From positions 1 to 64,000 of the forward strand of contig CP011268.1 in the NCBI GenBank assembly GCA_001007975.1: a stretch of DNA of 64,000 nucleotides. The letters run 5' to 3'. The position numbers and the translations under genes are program-made. This document shows, in pieces, positions 1,771-42,125 of the stretch (its first letter is position 1; the number at the start of each line of letters is the position of its first letter). Source of the stretch: a candidate division SR1 bacterium Aalborg_AAW-1. GTDB taxonomy: Bacteria > Patescibacteriota > Gracilibacteria > Absconditabacterales > Absconditicoccaceae. A model generated the notes under the pieces. It made no database searches. It was not told where the DNA came from and was given only the letters and a program-made list of their open reading frames with translations.

Positions 1771-2322
1771 ATGCAAGAAAAAATAATTTATATTAATGAT
1801 ATTCAAGATAATGGGTTTTATAAATGATATTTTTATTCTGATTTTGAAAATAATCATAAAATCAACAGTTTACTTATTAATCTCTCTTGTGGACTTAAAA
1901 AAGAACTAGAATGATTTCATCCAGAACTTCATCATCATCTTACATTACAATATCATGATATTATCAGGTGAATATATATTAGAGAGATATATACATCATT
2001 ATCAGATCAAACAATATCTTTAATAAAAAATAAAGATATATTTTCTTCAGAGACATTTCATAAGTCTCATCTTCGAAGAAGTAACGTAGACAATAAACAA
2101 TATATAGTCCTTATACCTCATGAATGAGATAAATATTATAGCATTTTAAATAACAAAAGTACACCACATATTACTTTATGAACCTATACAGGTTCTATAC
2201 CAGAATGAAAAATATTACAAATTTTTAGGACAATAAAAGACGATATTTTTCAAACAATGAATAATAAGTTATTTTTCGTCGAACCTGATAATGAGGTCAA
2301 AGTTTCTTTTAGAGAGTTATAA
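1771..2322 (+). CDS. 2H phosphoesterase-like protein
   Basis: This 183-aa protein is read through six in-frame TGA codons. It carries two histidine motifs of the form H-x-T-x: HLTL at residues 56-59 and HITL at 133-136. Their spacing of about 77 residues suits the 2H phosphoesterase superfamily (LigT, CPDase and AKAP18-like proteins), whose members cleave cyclic or 2'-5' phosphodiesters in RNA or nucleotides using both histidines. Length is typical. The assignment rests on the paired motifs and length only, so the substrate is unknown. It starts 17 bases after the dnaA terminator and its 3' end overlaps the convergent prolyl-tRNA editing gene by 14 bases. Confidence 0.55.
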
Positions 2323-2818
2323 TCTCCATATTCTCCACATCAATTACCTTCACCTCAACTCCCACAATATCCAAATATTGTACCAACGTCTCATGAGATA
2401 CAATAATCGTAGCATCATTACGATTGGGGTGTCGTCCGACAAGATCAGCTTCTCGGAGATCTTTATCCAGATAGAGAGTAAGATTCTCTGGTTTATGAAT
2501 AAGCCCAAAAATACTCACACTTCATGGAGTTAGATGTAATAACTCTTTCATTTCTTCTGGAGATCAAAAGGTCATATCTTTCGCTCCTACCAGTTTACGA
2601 AACTGATTGATCTGTAATCTTTTTGAAGACTCCACACAAATAAGTCGATACTGACCTCTTTTGTCTGTCAGGAAGAGATTTTTGGTTTGTAATCCAGGTA
2701 GTGATTGTTTAAGTTCTTCTCCCTGTTCAACTGTGAAAATAGGTTGATGCTCATGATATTCATATTGGAGATGATTATTCTGAAAAAAGCAGAGGAGAGT
2801 GGGGTCAAAATTATTCAT
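2309..2818 (-). CDS. YbaK/ProX-type prolyl-tRNA editing protein
   Basis: This 169-aa protein belongs to the YbaK/aminoacyl-tRNA editing family, which hydrolyses mischarged aminoacyl-tRNA such as Ala-tRNA(Pro) in trans. Supporting segments are KNLFLTDKRGQYRLICVESS, followed by QINQFRKLVGAKDMTFGSPEE with a UGA-coded Gly, then the PGSVSIFGL turn, and a C-terminal VGRHPNRNDATIIVS segment. It resembles the stand-alone ProX form more than a ProRS insertion. The start is MNNFDP at 2818; an upstream extension to 2896 would run into the terminator of the neighbouring gene and is unlikely. It ends inside the convergent 2H-like gene. Confidence 0.8.
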
Positions 2819-2880
2819 TCGATGATTATATCTAATACCTAAATATGCGAAACTATAGATTTTAGAACGTTTATTGCAAT

Positions 2881-2906
2881 AAAAAATCCCTAGCAAATAC
2901 TAGGGA
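2881..2906 (-). terminator. Terminator of the 400-aa minus-strand gene
   Basis: Read on the minus strand, the stem TCCCTAG / CTAGGGA with a 6-base loop is followed by six T. It lies 14 bases beyond the stop of the gene at 2920-4122 and separates it from the downstream editing-protein gene. Confidence 0.8.
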
Positions 2907-2919
2907 ATACTACTTAAAT

Positions 2920-4122
2920 TTAGCTCTTGAGTATATAAGAACACACATCAAACAGTTTTCCTAGGATAGCTGTACGATGTTTGTAGTTCTTATAATCGGG
3001 TTTCTTTGTCAAAGTACGGATATCTTTATCATATTTTCTCTGATACTCAAACCCAGTATAAATACATGACTGAATAAGCATCATACGTTCCCATACTGAC
3101 AGAGTATCATCTGAAATAATAATACTAGATACATCTGAAAAAAGTCCAATATCCTTCACTGGTGCATCAAGCGCAAACCAATGATTGATGTTCACAATAA
3201 ATGATTGTGGGTTCTTTTCATATGCACGACCGAATAGCATTTTTAATACTTTCTCTTGTACATTTTGTAATTCCCATTTTCTGAATTTAAAAGATTGCAT
3301 CTCTGTAATCTGTTCTACAAGTTCTTGATATCCCTCTGTCATAGTAGATAATGTCTCTTCCAATACTTCAGAATTAATAATTGCCTTGTGATGGACAAGT
3401 CTCACTCCAAAAATCGATTCAGAAGCATAGGCCATGATAAGATTTTCTTGTCCAGTTTGCATATCAACGAGCGACATTCGGAGTTTAAACGAATTATTGC
3501 CATCATGAGCAGTCGAAAGCACGATACAAGGAAGTAATCCTGTTCTTTCATAGATTTCAATCAAAGTACCATTAATCTTATCATCACATAATGATGCAAA
3601 ATCAAGAAAGGTAATAGAATGTTCCCTACGAGCTAACCATTTCCTCAAATTTTCTGGTTTGACTTTCTTCTCCGTTTTGGGCCTATAGACATAAAAATCG
3701 ATAGGATAACATCCACGATCAATAAGTGCATCAATAACATCCATACTAGATACAAACTGATAAACTTTTGATTTGTCATAGATCAGACCTGGTTCTTTTT
3801 TCACATCATCCAGTGTAAGACCAATACTAATTTCTTTCGACAATTTCTCTCGTGATATAAATCTGGAGAGGGATTTTTTGATCAAAGATTGAATAGCAAT
3901 AGGATCTTTACCACGTAATGGTAACGATTTCATAAACTGATCCAAACTTGATAAAAGCAAATGATCAAGACTAGAATACTCATTCGAGTAAATCTCAGTA
4001 GCAATACTCTTGGTCGTGTATGACTTTTTTAGTGAATCAAATCCAATACGAGATTGAATTTTCGCGAGAATTTGGAGATAATCATACAATTCTCTACCAA
4101 ATAATGTCTGTAGTGTCTTCAT
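2920..4122 (-). CDS. Hypothetical protein, 400 aa
   Basis: I do not recognise this 400-aa protein. It is soluble, with no signal peptide or membrane helix. The N-terminal 100 residues are rich in Leu, Ser and Lys and probably helical. The middle part (about 115-260) has mixed alpha/beta character, and the C-terminus is basic and aromatic. It has 16 or so glycines but not a single TGA codon, unlike most genes around it. It has its own terminator and is transcribed away from the exonuclease gene across about 150 bases of AT-rich DNA. No ATG lies earlier in frame before a stop. Confidence 0.85.
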   Translation of the reverse strand: MKTLQTLFGRELYDYLQILAKIQSRIGFDSLKKSYTTKSIATEIYSNEYSSLDHLLLSSLDQFMKSLPLRGKDPIAIQSLIKKSLSRFISREKLSKEISIGLTLDDVKKEPGLIYDKSKVYQFVSSMDVIDALIDRGCYPIDFYVYRPKTEKKVKPENLRKWLARREHSITFLDFASLCDDKINGTLIEIYERTGLLPCIVLSTAHDGNNSFKLRMSLVDMQTGQENLIMAYASESIFGVRLVHHKAIINSEVLEETLSTMTEGYQELVEQITEMQSFKFRKWELQNVQEKVLKMLFGRAYEKNPQSFIVNINHWFALDAPVKDIGLFSDVSSIIISDDTLSVWERMMLIQSCIYTGFEYQRKYDKDIRTLTKKPDYKNYKHRTAILGKLFDVCSYILKS

Positions 4123-30419: not shown

Positions 30420-30532
30420 TCATACAACATATCCAGAGAGGACAAGAGAGATCGGCTCGATGACTGTCCCAGCAACCTGCAAATCGTAAGGTGCTCATTC
30501 CGACCACGAAGGTGGACAGATATTTTGTATGA
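30420..30532 (+). promoter_or_regulatory. SAM-I (S-box) riboswitch aptamer
   Basis: The core shows the S-box order: CCAGAGAGG, then a small hairpin with GGCTC and ATGA, then CCAGCAACCT, an internal hairpin, GGTGCTCATTCC, and a closing hairpin before GGACAGATA. P1 extends to the perfect pair TCATACAA (30420-30427) / TTGTATGA (30525-30532). SAM binding should stabilise P1 and let the downstream terminator form, reducing metK expression when SAM is plentiful. The assignment agrees with metK being the next gene. Confidence 0.92.
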
Positions 30533-30597: not shown

Positions 30598-30665
30598 GTT
30601 TATAAAAAAACAATTTTCTGACTAAACAACGTATCATTATTTTTACTTATTTATTGTTTATTACC

Positions 30666-31790
30666 ATGTATTACATCACTTCAGAATCAGTTACCCCAGG
30701 GCATCCAGACAAGCTCTGTGACCGTATCTCAGACGCCATCCTAGATGCTTGCCTATCACAAGATCCACTCTCAAGAGTAGCCTGCGAATGTTATGCAACC
30801 ACAGGAATTGTTATTGTAGGAGGAGAGATCACGACAACAGCACACATTGATATTGAAGCTATCGCTAGAAAAGAGATCATCGCTATCGGATATGATAGCC
30901 AAGAAGCATGTTTTGATGGTCATACCTGTGGGATACTCAATCTTGTCCATACCCAGTCTCCTGATATAGCACTTGGAGTAGATACAGGATGAGCAGGAGA
31001 TCAGGGGATTATGTTCGGATATGCCACGAATGAGACTTCAAGCTATCTTCCACTCTCTATCCATCTCGCTCATCGTCTCGCAGAACAACTCACTACAGTC
31101 AGACAGTCTGGTCTTTTGGACTATCTTCTTCCAGATGGTAAGACGCAAGTTACGATAAAGAACAATGATGATGGTTCTGTAGCCATCGATACGATCGTCC
31201 TCTCTACACAGCACAAAGCGTCTGTCGACCAAGCGACTCTTAGAGCAGACGTGATTGAACACGTCATCAAACCAGTATTGGGTGACTACCGACATGATGG
31301 TATTATCTTCCATATCAATCCTACAGGACTGTTTACCATCGGATGACCGACAGGGGATTGTGGACTCACTGGACGTAAGATCATCATCGATACCTACGGA
31401 GGGATTGGTCGTCACGGAGGTGGAGCATTCTCTGGGAAAGATCCAACGAAGGTCGATAGATCAGGTGCCTATATCGCTCGTTACTTAGCGAAGAATATCG
31501 TCACTGCTGGACTCTGTGATCGTTGTGAGATACAGCTCAGTTATGCTATCGGTGTCGCTCAACCTCTCAGTATTTTCTTAGAATGTTTCGGTACCGAGAA
31601 GGTAGCCATCTCTGATATTTTGGAGACTATCACTACTCATTTCGATCTTTCACCAAATGGTATCATCAATAAATTAGATCTTAGACATCAAGAGTATATC
31701 AAAACGACCGCTTTCTGACATTTTGGACGTGAGGGATTTTCTTGGGAGAGCCTAGATAGTGTGGAAGTATTTAAAGCATTGTTAGGATAA
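30666..31790 (+). CDS. metK: S-adenosylmethionine synthetase
   Basis: This 374-aa enzyme makes SAM from methionine and ATP. The start [22 protein letters not shown] has the ATP-binding His/Asp motif. Further motifs are GGEITTTAH, then [16 protein letters not shown] (first G of GAGDQG at residue 109 is UGA), DGKTQVTI, then [14 protein letters not shown] and [16 protein letters not shown]. Length is normal. An in-frame ATG 12 bases upstream (30654) is possible, but 30666 matches the family start. It is controlled by the upstream SAM-I riboswitch. Confidence 0.97.
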
Positions 31791-31908: not shown

Positions 31909-32985
31909 ATGTTCAATCCTAAGATACCAAATAATGACTTGCCTCTCTTACCAGGGGATTTTGCATATCAAAATATTACACTCTATACCAAAGTACTAGA
32001 AGCACAACAAGAGTTATCGAAACTCAATGGATTGATTCACCTCTTACCCAATGCTGATGTACTTATTACTCCGCTTATCACAGCAGAATCAGTCTCCAGT
32101 AGTGCTATAGAAAACATCAATACTACCACAATAGAAGTACTCAAAAGTCAGGCTCTACCGATTGAGTCTCAAGTATGACCAGAAAAAGAAGTACTCCATT
32201 ATCGTCAGGCTATCATGCATGGATACGAACTTATACAACAGAAAGAACTCCTCTTAATATCTGATATCTTAGCAATACAAAAAATCATCGAACCTGATAG
32301 ACATGGTATACGTACCTTACCATGAACCATCATCGGTAACAGCAAATGAGAGACTATCTATACTCCACCAGAATGAAAACAAATTATACTTGATCTCCTT
32401 ACTAACCTCGAACATTTCATCAATACAAGCGATGATAATATCTATCCTCTTATCAAGACAGGAGTCATTCATTTCCAGTTTGAGGCAATCCATCCATTTT
32501 ATGATGGAAATGGTCGTACTGGTAGAGTAATGATGATTTTGTATCTTATTGTTACGAAATTATTAGATTATCCCGTATTGTTTCTCAGTGGATATATCAA
32601 CAAACACAAGCAAGAGTATTATGATATCTTACGCTATACCCAAGAAACTTCAGACTATACCAAGATCATCAACTATATCTTAGAAGCCATACTTGTCCAA
32701 TCTAGGATCACGTCTCAAAAAATCATTGGTATACAGCAATTGATTACAAAACTTGAAGATAGTATCCATGCTATCATCCCAAAAAAATCATATCAGATTA
32801 CTTGGTCTCTACTCAAAAATCCCTTTATCACTCTCCAAAACTTCGCTGATGATATAGGAGTGAGTAGACATACTGCCAGATCTTATAGTGAAAAACTCAA
32901 TAATGCAAATATCATCCAGAAGACTGAAGTAGGTAAATATACGCTTATATCGGTACCAGCTTTTATACAATTATTGAGTGAATAA
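31909..32985 (+). CDS. Fic-family protein with C-terminal winged helix
   Basis: This 358-aa protein has a Fic N-terminal domain with SSSAIENINTT (the alpha-inhibitory-like S-x-x-x-E-N region, residues about 65-75). The Fic active-site loop is HPFYDGNGRTGR (His195), preceded by FQFEAI. It also has a C-terminal region with an HTH (LKNPFITLQNFADDIGVSRHTARSYSEKL). Fic enzymes usually transfer AMP to target proteins. With the HTH and the inverted repeats upstream, autoregulation is likely. Four or so TGA codons are read as Gly. It stands directly before the type I R-M operon but has its own terminator. Confidence 0.88.
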
Positions 32986-33114: not shown

Positions 33115-34695
33115 ATGTCAGAAGATCAAAAACAATTACTTCAAAAAAAACTCCGAGATATAGCCAATGAACTGCGTGGTAAAATGAATGCAGACGAGTT
33201 TCGTGACTATATTTTGGGATTTATTTTCTTCAAATATCTATCAGAAAAAATATATTTGTATGCCAATAAGTTGCTTGAGCAAGACAACATGAAATATGAT
33301 CAGATTGATGAGAAATCACAAGAAGGAAAAGAAGTTCTTGAAGCTATCAAAGAAGATGCACTCGATAAACTCGGGTATTTTCTCAAGCCATCAGAATTAT
33401 TTCATGTGATAGCAAAGAGAGGAAACGCAGCGACTGATGATACTAACAATGAAGATACTCAATTTATCCTCGGAGATCTGAAAAACATTCTCAATAGTAT
33501 AGAACATAGCACTATGGGAACTGATAGTGAAGATGATTTTGATCATCTCTTTTCTGAACTTGATCTCACGAGTCAAAAACTTGGTAAAACAGAAAAAGAA
33601 AAAAACAATCTCATCGCAAGAGTCCTTGCTCATCTTGATAAGATAGATTTCCAACTTGAAAATGCAAAAATTGACATCCTCGGTGATGCGTATGAATATC
33701 TCATCGGGCAATTTGCTTCTGGCGCTGGGAAGAAAGCAGGAGAATTTTATACACCACAAGAAGTATCGAGAATCCTCGCACAGATCGTCACAACAGGAAA
33801 GAAAAGACTCAAATCTGTCTATGATCCTACCTGTGGGTCAGGATCGCTTCTTTTGCGTGTAGGAAGATATGTCGATGAAGTAGGCAAATATTATGGACAA
33901 GAGATGAACAACACGACCTACAATCTCTGTCGTATGAACATGATCTTGCATGGAGTGCATTATACCAACTTTGATATCAAACAAGAAGATACACTCGAAC
34001 ATCCACAACATAGAGATACCCAATTTGAAGCGATCGTAGCTAATCCACCATTTTCAGCTCATCGATCACACCAACTGAAAAACATAGATGAAAGATTTTC
34101 ACAATATTGAACATTGGCTCCAGAAAAAAGAGCAGACTATGCATTTATCACGCATATGATATATCATCTCGCAGAACATGGGACGATGGCAGTAGTCATG
34201 CCTCATGGAGTACTATTTACAGGGAATGCTAATTGACGTATCCGTGAATATCTCATCAAAGAAAAAAACTATCTCGATGCCGTGATAGGACTACCTGCCA
34301 ACATCTTCTATGGGACAAGTATCCCGACGTGTATCCTCGTGTTCAAAAAATGTCGTACTCATCCTGATGATGTCCTCTTTATCGACGCCAGTCAGTGATT
34401 TGAGAAAGTTAAGAATCAAAATATGCTCAGAGAAGATCATATCGAGAAGATTATCACTACCTACAGAGAGAGAACGACACAAGACAAATACAGTTATGTT
34501 GCGCCACTCAGTGAGATAGCAGATAATGAATACAACCTCAATATCCCTCGTTATGTCGATACCTTTGAAGAAGAAGCACAGATTGATCTGGACGCAGTAG
34601 CAAATTCTATCTCAGAGATAACACAAAAGATGAAAGAAACTGACACGGTGATCGCACAGTTTTGTAAAGAGTTAGGTATTAAAAGTCCGTTTTAA
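33115..34695 (+). CDS. hsdM: Type I restriction-modification methyltransferase subunit
   Basis: This 526-aa N6-adenine methyltransferase subunit has an N-terminal HsdM helical domain (IANELRGKMNADEFRDYILG). The SAM-binding motif DPTCGSGSLLL starts at residue 237, after GEFYTPQEVSRIL, and the catalytic motif NPPF at residue 310. It is the first gene of an operon with hsdS and hsdR, which flank three accessory genes. Only three of roughly 29 glycines use TGA, far fewer than in the cargo genes downstream. Confidence 0.96.
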
Positions 34696-34712: not shown

Positions 34713-34985
34713 GTGTTTCTAAAAAAATATTGGAAATGGATAATATGAATATGTGCTTTAATATTCTTACCAATACTTATGTTTATATTCTGGATATACC
34801 CAAAGCAATGTTTACTACAAACTCATTTCACTCTATGATGTATGAAAACAGAATGGAAAAACTTCACTCCTCAATATTCGGAAGCATTAGTAGATTTATG
34901 AGAAGATACAATTATTAAGAAATTTAATAATCGATTTAATCGACAGATCAAAAAGAAAAAATTCATAATTAATACATGATCTTAA
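34713..34985 (+). CDS. Small membrane protein between hsdM and hsdS, 90 aa
   Basis: Reading from GTG at 34713 gives one membrane helix (KYWKWIIGICALIFLPILMF, residues about 4-23). A short loop with two Cys follows and then a highly basic tail (KKFNNRFNRQIKKKKF). Four TGA codons are read as Gly and the frame ends at TAA. An overlapping frame with ATG at 34730 gives a less protein-like product. The weak point is the GTG start without a ribosome binding site. It may be an accessory membrane protein of the island. Confidence 0.5.
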
Positions 34986-35011
34986 AGACTTTAAAACAAT
35001 TAAATCATCCT

Positions 35012-36268
35012 ATGTCCCCAACCACTCACTCATCTCACATCCCACGTCTCCGTTTTTCTGGTTTTTTTGGTGAGTGGGAAGAAACAAGACGATGAAAAGA
35101 ATTTACTAATTTCCCAACTAATAGTATCTCTAGAGATTGATTAAATTATGAAGAATGAGAAATCAAAAATATTCATTATTGAGATATTCATACAAAATTT
35201 AATATATTATTTGATATTACTAAAGAAAAAGTTCCTTATATAAATTTAGATATAAAGTTCAATCAATCTAATATTTGTGATAAATGAGATATAATAGTTG
35301 CAGATGCTTCCGAAGATTATAGTGATATTGGTAAAGCAATAGAGATCACTAATATAGATAATCAAAAAATAGTAGCTTGATTACATACATTACATTTTAG
35401 ATCAAAAGACAAAATTTTTGCTTCTTGATTTTTAGGATATTTATTAAAAACTTCTTCATTTAGAAGAAAAATACAATTTATTGCACAAGGTGCGAAAGTT
35501 TTATGAATTTCAGTAAAAGAATTTAATAAAATTTGATTTATTATTCCAGAAAAGCAAGAACAAACCAAAATCGCCTCATTTCTCTCAGCAGTTGATGAGA
35601 AAATACAGTCACTCACTGATCTGCGTACAGCATGGGCAGACTATAAGACTGGTATCATGCAACAGATTTTCTCTCAGGAGATTCGTTTCCCTGGGTTTAC
35701 GGATGAGTGGGAAGAGAAGAAGTTGGGAGAAGTTTGTGATTTAAAAAATTGATATGCTTTTGAAAGTTCTAATTATGTTGAATGAGGAGATTATAAAATT
35801 ATTACTATTTCTAACGTACAAAATGGACAACTAAATTTATCATCATTTAATACTATAAACAGTTTGCCAGTAGATATAAAAAATTATCAAATCTTAAAAA
35901 AATGAGATTTACTTATTTCTATGACATGAAATGTTGGTCGTGTATGTATTGTAAATCAAAATAATTTATTACTTAATCAAAGAGTTTGAAAGTTAGAAAT
36001 CAAAAAAATAAATCAAATTTTTTTCTATCAACTTATAAGGCAAAATAAATTTGTATTTAAAATGACACAACTTGCACAGTGATGAGCACAACCGAATATT
36101 TGAAAATTTGATATATTATGATATAAATTACAAATTCCATCACTCCCAGAACAAGAAAAAATCGCCAACTTCCTCTCAAGTATCGATGATAAGATCGTTG
36201 AACTTGATGCTCAGATACAGATAGCAAAGCAGTGGAAAATAGGGTTGTTACAAGGGTTGTTTATTTAA
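35012..36268 (+). CDS. hsdS: Type I restriction-modification specificity subunit
   Basis: This 418-aa protein sets the DNA target of the type I enzyme. It has two target-recognition domains, each followed by a conserved helical spacer. The two halves repeat: RLRFSGFFGEWEETRRG and IRFPGFTDEWEEKKLGE at the domain starts, then EQTKIASFLSAVDEKIQSL and QEKIANFLSSIDDKIVEL in the spacers. About 18 of 31 glycines are TGA, nearly all in the recognition domains; the conserved parts use GGN. This suggests recognition domains swapped in from an AT-richer code-25 source. Confidence 0.94.
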
Positions 36269-36295: not shown

Positions 36296-37204
36296 ATGGT
36301 TAGAACTAGAAGATCAAACACAGTAAAAAGAAAATTTCATTTCTTTAATGTAGTATGAGAATGATTTGAACAATGTCTTTCAGAAATTAATAGTCTAAGT
36401 GGGGAGGATATGTATATGGATATTTCTGAAGTAAGAGATGTATATCTTAACAATCGAGCAGAACAATGAAATTATTATTTTTGATGTTTTGTATCCGCAA
36501 AACGATGAGATTATCCAGAAAAGGTATCTCGTGGAAATAAAGAACTATCAGATTTATGATTATGAGAATCTGAATGAATTGGAGAAAAAACATATATCTT
36601 ATATGTTCCATCATCAAAAACATTAGTTGTAGAATATAATCATTACGGAACAAGAGTATGACATATAGAAGAATATATAAATCATATTGCAGGAAGTTGA
36701 TTGCTTTCATCAATATTTGAAGATTATTCGTTAATGATGGTAATGAATAGGGATATCCAATTAAAACTTAGTGAATTAGAACACGTTGCTTCGCTAGAAA
36801 TTAAAATTAAAGAAGAAAATATCTCACATACTAGCGAAATTGACGAACATTTAAAAGGAGCGTTAGAAGCTGCTGCTCAAATATGATGAACAAATATTGT
36901 TTCTCTTAAAATAAAATCTAAAAGAGGAGAGTGACGACTATTAGATAATAATTCCAATTTATTTACAAGATTAAAAAGATTCATACAACATGGATCTGCT
37001 CAAGAGGTATTTGAATCTCTAAAAATATCTTGATTAGAATCTTGAGAAACAAAACTATCTGCTTTTGATTTATTAAAAGATAAAATAGAAGTAGTAGAAA
37101 GTATTATAAAAATGGGAAGTTCTAGAATACTAGATGAAAATGATGTATTTAATAAATTAAAATCAGCATATCTTTCTAAAAGAGAGCTTCTTATTAATTT
37201 ATAA
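36296..37204 (+). CDS. Unknown protein, 302 aa, island cargo
   Basis: About fifteen in-frame TGA codons hide this gene under the standard code. The product has a basic N-terminus (VRTRRSNTVKRKFHFFNVV). An alpha/beta N-terminal half includes NYYFGCFVSAKRGDYPEK and EGIGEKTYILYVPSSKTLVV, then EYNHYGTRVGHIEEYINHIA. The C-terminal half is helical and charged. I cannot assign a family; the layout is reminiscent of uncharacterised phage-defence associated proteins. It sits between hsdS (27 bases) and the four-helix membrane protein (27 bases), in the same direction, so all are probably one transcript with the reverse transcriptase. Confidence 0.75.
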
Positions 37205-37231
37205 AAACTTTATATATTTATAGCCTAATAT

Positions 37232-37687
37232 ATGAAAAAACTCAAAGATATCTATTGGAAAAATTTTCTCTATGCAGACACTCTTTTATGAATATTTTTA
37301 AGTATTTTATACTTTTTTAGTATAGGAAAATATGGAAGTTTTTGAAATAATAATATAATTGATGTTGCAGCTATATACTTTTGATTAGCATGACTTCTTT
37401 TAGCAACTTTTTCTATTATTTTTTCTTTTAAAGATGGAGAGAAAATTCAGTTTTTACAAGCGAATAAAAACTATAAAGAAGTATATAACATCTTCCAACA
37501 AGCAATTGTATTTTCTTTATTGTTTTGAACATTATTCATCATGATAAGTTTTTGAATAAATTTAGAATTTATATGAATAAAGATTCATAATATTATTATT
37601 TTTACTATTGTAATTTTATGAATAAAATTATGGCGTTGTTTACGAATTTTGAAAAATTTATTTAATTTATCTCTACCTAAGGGATAA
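37232..37687 (+). CDS. Four-helix membrane protein, 151 aa, island cargo
   Basis: Helices lie near residues 18-33 (TLLGIFLSILYFFSIG), 46-66 (AAIYFGLAGLLLATFSIIFSF), 92-110 (AIVFSLLFGTLFIMISF) and 118-135. The block following helix 2, KDGEKIQFLQANKNYKEVYN, links the two helix pairs on the cytoplasmic side. Small membrane proteins of this style often accompany defence genes, where they may damage the membrane when a sensor is triggered. Seven or so TGA codons are read as Gly. It is 34 bases ahead of the reverse transcriptase. Confidence 0.7.
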
Positions 37688-37721
37688 AAAATAAAATAAG
37701 ATTTACTTGTATATATCAAAT

Positions 37722-39278
37722 ATGATGAGCCAAGCAGAACATCATTATAATGAAACCAAAAGATGAGCAAAAAAATTAAATAAAGATGTTATAGCAAAGT
37801 GGCTTCTACAATTTTGATATTATCCAGAACAAAATGTACTTCCACCTCAATTTAAGGTGAAGGAGTTTAAAGTTAAAAATCCATATTATACAAAGGGAAT
37901 GCTAAAAAACAGTAATAATCTTAGTAATCATATCAACCTTTCTTATCCAAAAACACAATTTAATGATAGACTTTTTTCATTACAAGATCCAAAATATTAT
38001 CATGATATTGTTCATATAATAAGCAACAATTGGAATAAAATTACTAAGTTATTATTCCCAAACTGACAGAAAATATTTAGCTATAGTTTTCCGATCCCCC
38101 TTTATCATACAACAAATTTGCGTTCATGAAGAATGATATATGAACGGATACAAATGGCTGAATGAGATTTAGTAGTAGATTCACATAGATATAAATATAT
38201 AGTAAAAGCAGATGTTACTAATTTTTATCATTCTATTTATACTCATACTATTTCATGGGCCATTACGGATAGAATAATAGCTTATATTAAAAAGAATGAT
38301 TATGATGATAATATATTTTGAATAGGAAATAAATTAGATAGATTATTTCAAAAATCAAATGATTTGCGTACTGTTGGTATTCCTATTTGATCTGCTGTTA
38401 GTGATTTAATAGCTGAAATTATTTTATCAAGAATAGATCAAAAAGTATCAAGATATTTAAAAATTAATAAAATAGATTTTATTGGGACTAGATTCAAAGA
38501 TGATTATAGATTTTTATGTAATAGCAAAGAAGATGCAACAATTATTATTAAAGGTCTAAGTAAAGAATTATCTAAATTTAATTTAATTTTAAATGATAAA
38601 AAAACTGAAATTCTAACTTCTCCAACAGGATTATATAGATTGCATACAAAAGAATATGAGCCATTATCATTAAAAAATGAGACTACTATATCATTTAAGA
38701 AATTTGAATTGGTTTTATTGAAAACTATTGAAATACATGAAAAATATCCGTGAACTTCTTTAATAGAAAAATTTTTATCAGAATTATATAATAAAGAATA
38801 TAAAATAAAAATTGATTATAATAGTTTTTCAACTCACAAACAACACACCAAAATATATAAATCTATTAGTCTTATTTTCTCATTATATAACTATTCTAAA
38901 AAATCCCTTTGATCTTGTATATGATTAATATTATTAATTTATGATCAGTATAAGATAATCTGTCCTGACTTAAGGTTCTTTATAGAATCTATTATAAAAA
39001 ATTGATTAATTATATCTGTAAAACAAAAATTAGTTTTTGATAGTAGCTGGTTTATATTTACTTATAATAGATTGTGAATTACTATTCCTTACGATATAAA
39101 AAAAGAAATTTTAACAAATAATTATTTAGATTCTTCTCTTATAGAATCACTTATAAAAAACAAACAACTATTTTTTGAAAATTCATGACTAAAATGATTT
39201 ATTAAGAAAAAAGATATTAAAGATATGAATCTTGCAAAAGAACTTAATATTTTTGATAAAAATGAAGATATCTTATAA
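37722..39278 (+). CDS. Abi/DRT-like reverse transcriptase
   Basis: This 518-aa protein has RT motifs in order: ADVTNFYHSIYTHTISWAI (first catalytic Asp at residue 164), TVGIPIGSAVSDLIAEIIL, and FKDDYRFLC (Asp260-Asp261, a Y/F-x-D-D box), then KFNLILNDKKTEIL. A C-terminal region of about 230 residues without a known domain follows. There is no group II intron maturase or endonuclease domain, and no retron RNA was seen upstream. The style (NFY.SIYTH.I.WAI) fits the 'unknown group/Abi' reverse transcriptases of defence systems. Fourteen of about twenty glycines are TGA. It lies between cargo genes and hsdR (30 bases). Confidence 0.85.
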
Positions 39279-39308: not shown

Positions 39309-42125
39309 ATGCCTCACCAATCCGAACTCACGCTTGAAGACAATCTCATGACTCAGCTCCAGTCTCTGGAGTATGATCTCATCCAGATCGCAGACGAATC
39401 TGATCTCATCGCCAACCTCAAGACCCAACTCGAGATCCATAATCACATCACCTTGTCAGACAAGGAATTTTCTCTCATCCTGAATCATCTGTCCAAAGGA
39501 AATGTTTTTGATAAATCTAAGATCCTCAGAGATAAGTTCGCTCTCACCAGAGATGACGGATCAGTAAAGTATATCAGCTTTTTAAATCAAGTCCACCGAT
39601 GCCAAAACGAGTATCAAGTCACTCGTCAGATCTCTATGGAATGAAGTTATAAAAATCGTTATGATGTGACCATCCTCATCAATGGACTCCCACTCGTACA
39701 GATAGAACTCAAGAGGAGAGGATTGGAACTCAAAGAAGCATTTAATCAGACTAATCGTTATCAACGCCATAGTTATGACAGTAGTGCAGGATTATTTCAA
39801 TACATCCAACTCTTCGTCATCTCCAATGGTGTAAATACAAAATACTATGCTAACAATCGTAATCAATCATTTAAACAAACGTTCTACCGAGCAGATAGAG
39901 AAAACAAGAAGATCACCCAACTCGATGCCTTTACCAAAGAGTTTCTCGAACCTTGTCATCTTTCGAAGATGATCACCAAATATATCGTCCTCAATGAGAC
40001 GTATAAGATACTCATGGTATTGCGTCCGTATCAGTACTATGCGACTGAAGCTATCGTCCAGAGAGTGAAGCACAGTGACCAAAACGGATATATCCGACAC
40101 ACGACATGATCAGGTAAGACATTGACGTCATTTAAGACGGCTCAGATTTTGGTAGACCTTCCAGAAGTCTACAAGGTGGTTTTTGTCGTAGATAGAAAAG
40201 ATTTGGATTATCAGACAACCAAAGAATTTAATAGCTTCGCCAAAGGAAGCATAGACGGAACTGAAGACACCAGACAACTCGTCAAACAACTCTCAGATGA
40301 TACCAAACTCATCGTCACGACGATACAAAAACTCAATACAGCAATCACCAAACAACACTACTTAGATAAGGTAGAGAAGATACAGCATGAGAGGATTGTG
40401 TTTATCTTTGATGAATGTCATCGTAGCCAATTTGGAGATGTACACAAGCGTGTAAGATCATTTTTCACGAATGCACAGATGTTTGGGTTTACTGGTACAC
40501 CGATCTTTGCCGACAATCACAACAAAGGACAGACCACAGCAGATCTCTTTGTAGAATGTTTACACAAATATGTCATTACTGACGCTATCAACGATGAGAA
40601 TGTACTCAGATTTTCGATAGAATATGTAGGTAAATATACAGAGAAATCATGATCTCGCAATGATGTCGATATATCCGTAGAAGATATTGATACCAAAGAA
40701 CTCATGGAATCTCCTGAACGTCTGACGAAGATTGCTGATTATATCATCGCCAATCATAGTCGTAAGACTCATCACAAAGAATTTACTGCGATGATGTGTG
40801 TGAGCAGCGTCGATGTCTTAACCAAGTATTATGATATTTTTCAAACCAAAAAGAACGCTGGAGAACACAATCTCCGTATTGCAACGATCTTCTCGTATGG
40901 AACAAATGAAGATGATAAGTGAGCAAATGGTCTCATCGCTGAAGATGTCTTAGAAGTAGCATGACCAGTCAACCAGCATAGTAGAGATATGTTAGAAAGT
41001 TATATCGCTGATTATAATCAGATGTATGGTACGAATTATACGACCAAAGATAGTATATCATTTTATAACTACTACAACGATATCGCCAAGAGAGTAAAAG
41101 CGAGAGAAGTTGATCTCCTTTTGGTGGTAAATATGTTTTTGACAGGATTTGATAGTCCATCTCTGAACACTCTGTATGTCGATAAAAATCTCAAATATCA
41201 TGGACTGATCCAAGCATTCTCTCGTACGAATCGTCTCCTCAATGAAAAGAAATCGCAAGGAAATATTGTCTGTTTCCGTAATCTCAAAAAAGCAACTGAT
41301 GAAGCGATTACTCTTTTTTCAAACAAAGAAGCGATAGAAAAAGTTATCATGGAACCCTACGAAGTCTATCATGATAAATTTCAAAAAGCTATCCAATCAC
41401 TACTTGAGATCACACCAACGATTGATAGTGTAGATAATTTATATGGAGAGGAAGAGAAACTTGCATTTGTACAAGCATTTCGTGAGGTGATTCGTTTACA
41501 TAATATTTTAGAATGATTTGCAGATTATCGTTTTGAATGATTTGCTATATCCTCACAAGAGTACGAAGATTTTAAAAGTAAATATCTCGATATCTATGAT
41601 AGCACCAAATCATGAGGCAAAGAGAAAGTATCTATCCTAGAAGATGTAGATTTTGAATTAGAACTTATCCAACGTGATGAGATCACCGTGACCTATATTC
41701 TTTCACTCCTTGCCAAACTCAAAGGAACGACTAACATCACCAAAAAAGAAGCTCTCCATCAACAGATTATGCAAATTATATGATGAAATAGATCACTACG
41801 TTCCAAGAGAGAGCTGATAGAGGAGTTTATCAATAATTATCTTGCGACGATTACAGAGACGGAAGATGTTGAAGAATCGTTTTATACATTCTTAGATGAA
41901 AAGAAAAAACTTGCTCTTAATGAACTCATCCAAGAAGAGAAACTCATACCAAGTGAAGTACATAAGATCATCGATCATTATATCTTTAGTGAAAAGAAAC
42001 CCCTCCGTGATGATATCGTAGGAGCATTAGAAACCAAACCGACTATCTTACAACGTACTCCTATTATTACCAGAGTGACAGAAAAACTCATGAAGTTTAT
42101 AGAGATATTTATTAATGATTTGTAA
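39309..42125 (+). CDS. hsdR: Type I restriction enzyme R subunit
   Basis: This 938-aa protein has an N-terminal nuclease domain with the PD-(D/E)xK pattern [13 protein letters not shown] followed by VQIELKRRG. The helicase motor has Walker [12 protein letters not shown] (first Gly, residue 267, is TGA; Lys270), [18 protein letters not shown] and motif [12 protein letters not shown]. The C-terminal part binds the methyltransferase core. It translocates and cuts unmodified DNA. About ten of 36 glycines are TGA. The gene completes the hsdM-hsdS-hsdR operon and a terminator follows it. Confidence 0.95.

Follow-up and report, generated by a model that had tools for sequence, protein, structure and literature searches.

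Two probably independent abortive-infection modules, a putative RexAB-like gene pair and a UG14 reverse transcriptase, in the hsdS-hsdR gap of a type I restriction-modification operon of a code-25 CPR bacterium

The genome of candidate division SR1 bacterium Aalborg_AAW-1 is a single contig of 1.04 Mb (CP011268.1) in which TGA is read as glycine (code 25), and its first 64,000 nucleotides, referred to here as the window, carry a complete type I restriction-modification (R-M) operon on the forward strand. All three hsd genes encode their Pfam domains: hsdM, the methyltransferase subunit (33115..34695; N6_Mtase, E 8e-112, and HsdM_N), hsdS, the specificity subunit (34976..36268; two stretches of Methylase_S, E 8e-38), and hsdR, the restriction subunit of the EcoR124 type (39309..42125; HSDR_N, SWI2_SNF2 and EcoR124_C, E 9e-64). 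Between hsdS and hsdR sit three cargo genes of the same strand, which encode a 302-residue protein of the Pfam family DUF6731 (36296..37204; E 2e-15), a membrane protein of 151 residues (37232..37687) and a reverse transcriptase (RT) of 518 residues (37722..39278), the last counted from an ATG, with an alternative TTG start possible at 37707. The gaps that lead from hsdS through the three genes to hsdR measure 27, 27, 34 and 30 bases. The cargo frames contain 15, 8 and 14 in-frame TGA codons, respectively, and since such frames stay open over 2.9 kb, they are not chance products. The original prediction, made from the letters of the sequence, had described three co-directional genes with gaps of 27–34 bases and an RT with D164 and an FKDDY motif, and this anatomy is borne out.

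Other features lie upstream. A Fic/DOC family protein is encoded just before hsdM (31909-32985), and the space between hsdM and hsdS holds a 90-residue ORF (34713-34985) that has no Pfam match and is possibly a remnant in a second cargo slot. Further upstream, a SAM riboswitch (30426-30526) precedes an ORF (30654-31790) that resembles S-adenosylmethionine synthetase, a label taken from its sequence rather than from a family search, which places this riboswitch in a code-25 CPR genome.

The RT is a UG14 enzyme, a class 1 member of the UG/Abi group, as indicated by its profile, its place in the tree, its fold and its catalytic aspartates. The PADLOC model RT_UG14 matches residues 2-513 with 576 bits (E 1.3e-173), and is followed by Drt6 (215 bits, E 7e-64) and then by Drt4 and Abi-P2, while the NCBI family models give the protein no name, the best of them being Drt4 with 156 bits against a cut-off of 450. 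The protein has the catalytic motifs D164 and F258-K-D-D-Y262, and across 43 aligned UG14 proteins D164, D260 and D261 do not vary. A scan of genome contigs with an aligned query yielded 62 UG14-like loci, one of them from Enterobacter mori (L047), which score at least 183 bits (the next group scores at most 127 bits) and come from at least 12 phyla, namely Bacteroidota, Pseudomonadota, Cyanobacteriota, Planctomycetota, Verrucomicrobiota, Acidobacteriota, Chloroflexota, Fibrobacterota, Balneolota, Thermodesulfobacteriota, Spirochaetota and Patescibacteria. When placed in a tree together with further class 1 RTs, the window RT falls inside a UG14 clade of 61 rows (support 96/98) and, within it, inside a subclade of 15 rows (97/94); its branch is rather long, and its nearest neighbour by path is a sequence from Patescibacteria. 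Profile and tree agree with the UG/Abi (DRT-type) identity that had been proposed for it. In a divergent UG14-like RT from a Curtissbacteria genome (L009, 1118-2602), the DD motif is replaced by RYRDNY, and this enzyme may be catalytically dead or altered.

The AlphaFold2 model of the RT, built with UG14 relatives, has a pLDDT of 91.8 and consists of an RT domain (residues ~20-310) and a helical C-terminal domain (~320-515). Its best structural matches are DRT6 (Z 29.6, 435 residues), DRT4 (Z 27.9) and Abi-P2 (Z 26.6), whose alignments extend over model residues 11-512 and comprise 430-440 residues. Because the match covers nearly the full chain, the C-terminus, which had been described as 230 unassigned residues, is instead the helical domain of about 200 residues common to these three class 1 enzymes. 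A group II intron RT was rejected on a profile E of only 2.6e-12, on a Z of 15.5 for the RT part as compared with 29.6, and on the lack of an accompanying RNA; diversity-generating retroelement (DGR) and retron RTs were rejected as well, their fold match being confined to the RT part (Z ~15 or less), again with no RNA. In the surroundings of the RT, the Rfam search detected no RNA, be it of an intron, a retron or another kind, and its sole hit in the window is the SAM riboswitch at 30426. In this respect the original prediction, which took the RT to be Abi/DRT-like and saw no maturase, endonuclease or retron RNA, is supported. DRT10, which combines a UG17 RT with a SLATT protein, was likewise rejected, as the UG17 profile reaches 46.8 bits and UG14 reaches 576, and a SLATT-type partner was rejected because the RT is not UG17 and the 151-residue protein has no Pfam match at E<1.

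The UG14 loci assign no partner gene to this enzyme. When the DUF6731 protein (P0001) and the membrane protein (P0002) were searched with phmmer (E < 1) against the ORFs of 80 loci, relatives of either were found at none of them, including the 62 UG14 loci, for which DNA up to ~6 kb on each side was examined, and not one of 17 searched genomes that encode a UG14 RT or another class 1 RT contains DUF6731 anywhere. Clustering of the neighbours within 5 kb gave no family present at more than 8 of the 62 loci; the two largest groups, with 8 loci each, resemble methyltransferase/R-M-type proteins and UvrD-like helicases, as labelled by eye from the sequence starts and not by profile search. In the window, the flanks of 34 and 30 bases leave no room for a separate ncRNA, although an RNA lying within the neighbouring genes may be needed. 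UG14 appears to be an enzyme encoded by a lone gene, in varied surroundings some of which are rich in defence genes. The papers searched included none on UG14 RTs or on DUF6731, and for UG14 no published mechanism was found. For related enzymes, single-gene class 1 DRTs of the DRT4 type are known to produce untemplated ssDNA that becomes toxic once a phage protein protects it (PMC13213688), and synthesis has been called untemplated for class 1 enzymes and protein-primed for Abi RTs (PMC13174585, PMC12632851). By analogy, protein-primed, untemplated DNA synthesis and phage protection may be carried over to UG14, where candidate priming tyrosines are Y33, within GYFPE, and the invariant Y121, Y140, Y169 and Y173.

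The other two genes form a pair. The 302-residue protein had been listed as unknown; besides its DUF6731 assignment, it matches the PADLOC profile PDC-M67A (E 8.9e-6). Sixteen further DUF6731 loci were examined, from a Pseudomonas phage, the archaeal virus GahPV1, an E. coli prophage (L127), two phylum-wide genome samples and IMG/VR; two of them are 81% alike, and among the rest pairwise identity stays below 40%. In all 16, a membrane protein of 118-195 residues, always of one family, is encoded directly downstream of DUF6731, including one locus in which the DUF6731 frame is broken (L128) and one in which the partner gene overlaps DUF6731 in another frame (L134); none of the 16 has an RT. The 151-residue protein is recovered at E 4e-6 by a profile of the membrane partner built without the window, a search in which the first unrelated ORF comes at 0.26, and BLASTP of this protein against the GahPV1 partner gives 4e-7. 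Both for this protein and for its relatives, hydropathy is consistent with about four membrane helices, as had been claimed. GahPV1 itself, an archaeal pleolipovirus, carries the RexAB-like pair of DUF6731 and membrane protein at 2210-3674 of its locus (L120). The window holds the only DUF6731 copy among 240 genomes of the phylum, and no sequence relatives of either protein were found in plasmids; the alignment of 10 DUF6731 sequences is too diverged to serve as a scanning query. As the two genes co-occur without an RT at all of these 16 loci, the putative sensor and effector belong together and the RT stands apart.

Fold comparison relates the DUF6731 protein to RexA of phage lambda. Its AlphaFold2 model, based on an alignment of 8 sequences, has a pTM of 0.70 and a pLDDT of 66.6, which restricts the RexA/RdgC assignment to the fold level. 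The top match in VIA-align is lambda RexA (8twq; Z 12.4, rmsd 3.5, 145 residues), with model residues 12-302 aligned on RexA 1-269, and it is followed at Z 6-7 (best 7.1) by Iml3, Chl4, the kinetochore protein CENP-N and RdgC. In a Foldseek search of the PDB, RdgC (E 4.5e-3), CENP-N and Iml3 rank highest, with weak E values, and no RexA chain is among the best 50 matches, so that 8twq surfaced in VIA-align alone. RdgC, Iml3 and Chl4 are the structural relatives named in the description of the RexA structure (PMC11077077).

Sequence profiles point in the same direction. DUF6731 aligns colinearly and at full length with a profile of four RexA sequences (P 1.2e-4, score 24.4; best of 151 decoys 11.5), and the membrane family does so with RexB in a profile-profile comparison (P 1.4e-4, score 24.2; best of 12 decoys 7.8), although the decoys are single sequences, which somewhat favours the RexA and RexB families; with RexA or RexB entered as single sequences, scores reach at most 16.7 and 17.2. 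The single lambda RexA sequence matches the DUF6731 profile weakly (P 0.006) and did not align in a repeat; for RexA, clear signals come only from its family profile and from the comparison of folds. The PADLOC RexB profile matches five partner proteins (2.9e-5 to 0.019) but not the 151-residue protein of the window, whose link to RexB runs through its family. In the Pseudomonas phage AUS531phi, the DUF6731 pair follows the CI repressor gene, as rexAB follows cI in lambda. From models and profiles, we conclude that DUF6731 probably belongs to the RexA group at the fold level and has a RexB-like partner. In Pseudomonas putida RexAB, the DNA-binding RexA triggers the membrane-damaging RexB (PMC12894663); carried over to the window, this would make the DUF6731 protein a DNA-binding sensor and the 151-residue protein a RexB-like effector.

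Relatives of hsdR are present in 39 of 147 related genomes, and eleven regions were read upstream of hsdR, nine obtained from the hsdR search and two from the RT searches; as they were picked for hsdR or an RT, the proportion that holds cargo should not be taken as a frequency. The hsdS-hsdR gap is empty in three of them, among them G145, which has hsdM-hsdS-hsdR and a first hsdS recognition domain resembling that of the window, and also G039 and G036. Elsewhere, the gap contains an AlbA-type protein (G069), an OLD-like ATPase (G022), an IS200-like gene that narrowly misses the Pfam cut-off (G059), a Ymh protein (G046), an AbiP2-type RT with an AbiJ-like gene that is under the cut-off (G143; L187, 4668-6961) or a divergent, long-branch class 1 RT (G209; L186, 3362-4918), and the region of G095 is not informative on slot content. 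In G008 (L182), a Fic gene lies inside the gap, which may be compared with the Fic/DOC gene upstream of hsdM in the window. The differing cargo in related genomes indicates that the hsdS-hsdR gap is a cargo slot, in which two probably independent modules are stacked in the window. The reading of the three genes as cargo for defence, carried inside a type I R-M operon by a code-25 CPR bacterium, is supported.

The explanation we favour, with a probability of roughly 0.78, is that the slot holds two independent abortive-infection modules, a RexAB-like pair (36296-37687) and a lone UG14 RT (37722-39278). In the first, the DUF6731 protein, with its modelled RexA/RdgC-type DNA-binding fold, would detect either DNA of the phage or complexes of protein with DNA, and in response open or activate its partner with four transmembrane helices, which, judging from lambda and P. 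putida RexAB, would depolarise or permeabilise the membrane and stop growth. In the second, the RT would act alone and, by analogy to DRT4, DRT6 and Abi-P2, may form an oligomer that polymerises untemplated, protein-primed ssDNA, whose build-up upon infection might be toxic or sequester phage factors. The spacing of the genes suggests that both modules are co-transcribed with hsdS and hsdR and could serve as backup layers behind restriction.

The composition of the operon bears on the origin of the cargo. In the three cargo genes, TGA encodes 62-70% of the glycines and the GC content is 21-27%, in contrast to hsdM (10% TGA-Gly, 38% GC) and hsdR (28%, 37%). The AT-rich target-recognition domains of hsdS, which are flanked by GC-richer conserved parts in the profile of GC and TGA, resemble the cargo in being AT-rich and TGA-rich, and the closest full-length hsdR found (G069, 64%) has no in-frame TGA. 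From this contrast, the cargo has probably long resided in, or was obtained from, an AT-rich code-25 lineage, and the hsd backbone seems not to share that history. The fraction of TGA-encoded glycines could be used, like a clock, to date the transfer of genes into genomes with code 25.

The shared composition means that the three genes may have arrived together, and this is the main argument left for the original prediction that they form one new system of RT, membrane effector and sensor, for instance a DRT-type system in which the RexA-like protein binds the DNA that the RT produces and then gates the membrane effector, a scheme like the one proposed for DRT10 and its SLATT partner. The common strand and the tight gaps of 27 and 34 bases also fit such a unit, DRT10 offers a precedent for an RT with a membrane protein (PMC12632851), and RexA-type proteins bind DNA (PMC11077077, PMC12894663). 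However, the pair is complete without an RT at every other DUF6731 locus, and the absence of its genes from the 62 UG14 loci and of DUF6731 from the 17 genomes with UG14 or other class 1 RTs counts against a single unit as well. The result named beforehand as refuting, that homologues of the three genes never co-occur elsewhere, is what was found: the DUF6731 and membrane genes do go together, as predicted, but the RT does not belong with them, and a single system is unlikely. It is a little less likely still that the UG14 RT and the RexA-like protein have become coupled in this lineage, two older modules being joined into a new DNA-signalled, membrane-gating defence. A reading of the cargo as passenger DNA, decayed or without activity, would fit its low GC and a gene order (DUF6731, membrane protein, UG14 RT) known from one genome, but with three open frames rich in TGA-encoded glycine, all catalytic and UG14-invariant residues kept and a high-confidence RT model, this is improbable. 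The least likely reading is that the cargo regulates or moderates the R-M system, for example by restriction alleviation, and has no defence role of its own; its position within the hsd operon obliges it to share that transcript, but homologues of both modules lie mostly away from type I R-M operons and unrelated genes fill the slot in relatives.

RexAB is the oldest known exclusion system, and the pairs described here make it testable in new settings. The most interesting result is the RexA-like identity that models and profiles suggest for DUF6731, together with its constant membrane partner, by which a Pfam family of unknown function gains a likely identity. According to a 2026 paper, no more than five RexAB-like systems have been described (PMC12894663); the pairs found here come from genomes of two phylum-wide samples, those of a Lentilactobacillus and of an Enterobacter, and from several phages, an archaeal pleolipovirus and a CPR bacterium. 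New points are the putative RexA-like nature of DUF6731, the probable presence of RexAB beyond the lambdoid phages, a CPR bacterium included, and a UG14 enzyme encoded in code 25. In addition, the hsdS-hsdR gap of CPR type I operons emerges as a place where genes for abortive infection are lodged, two more class 1 RTs among them.

Among known systems, DRT4 (UG15) and DRT6 are closest to the window RT, with which they share the full-length fold including the helical C-terminal domain, the catalytic aspartates and, probably, the organisation as a single gene without partner gene or ncRNA, although UG14 is a separate clade and identity is about 20-24%. Abi-P2, AbiK and AbiA are class 1 UG/Abi polymerases of the same architecture that match less well, in sequence as in structure (Z 26.6, 23.9 and 16.4). 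For the pair, the PADLOC candidate PDC-M67 (A/B) matches the DUF6731 protein through its A profile, but PDC-M67B does not match the membrane protein of the window and matches one relative weakly (0.026). The lambda RexAB and P. putida RexABpp systems have in common with the window pair a gene of ~280-300 residues for a RexA fold, modelled in the case of the window, followed by a gene of ~145-150 residues for a four-helix membrane protein, and the repressor-adjacent position of lambda RexAB is matched by a relative of the DUF6731 pair; the window pair differs in an identity near noise (about 14%) and in its location in a chromosomal R-M operon of a code-25 CPR bacterium. Lastly, the R-linked ORFs (rlo) of Campylobacter, despite their different cargo and different phylum, occupy the same position in a type I operon, between hsdR and hsdS (PMC5183652).
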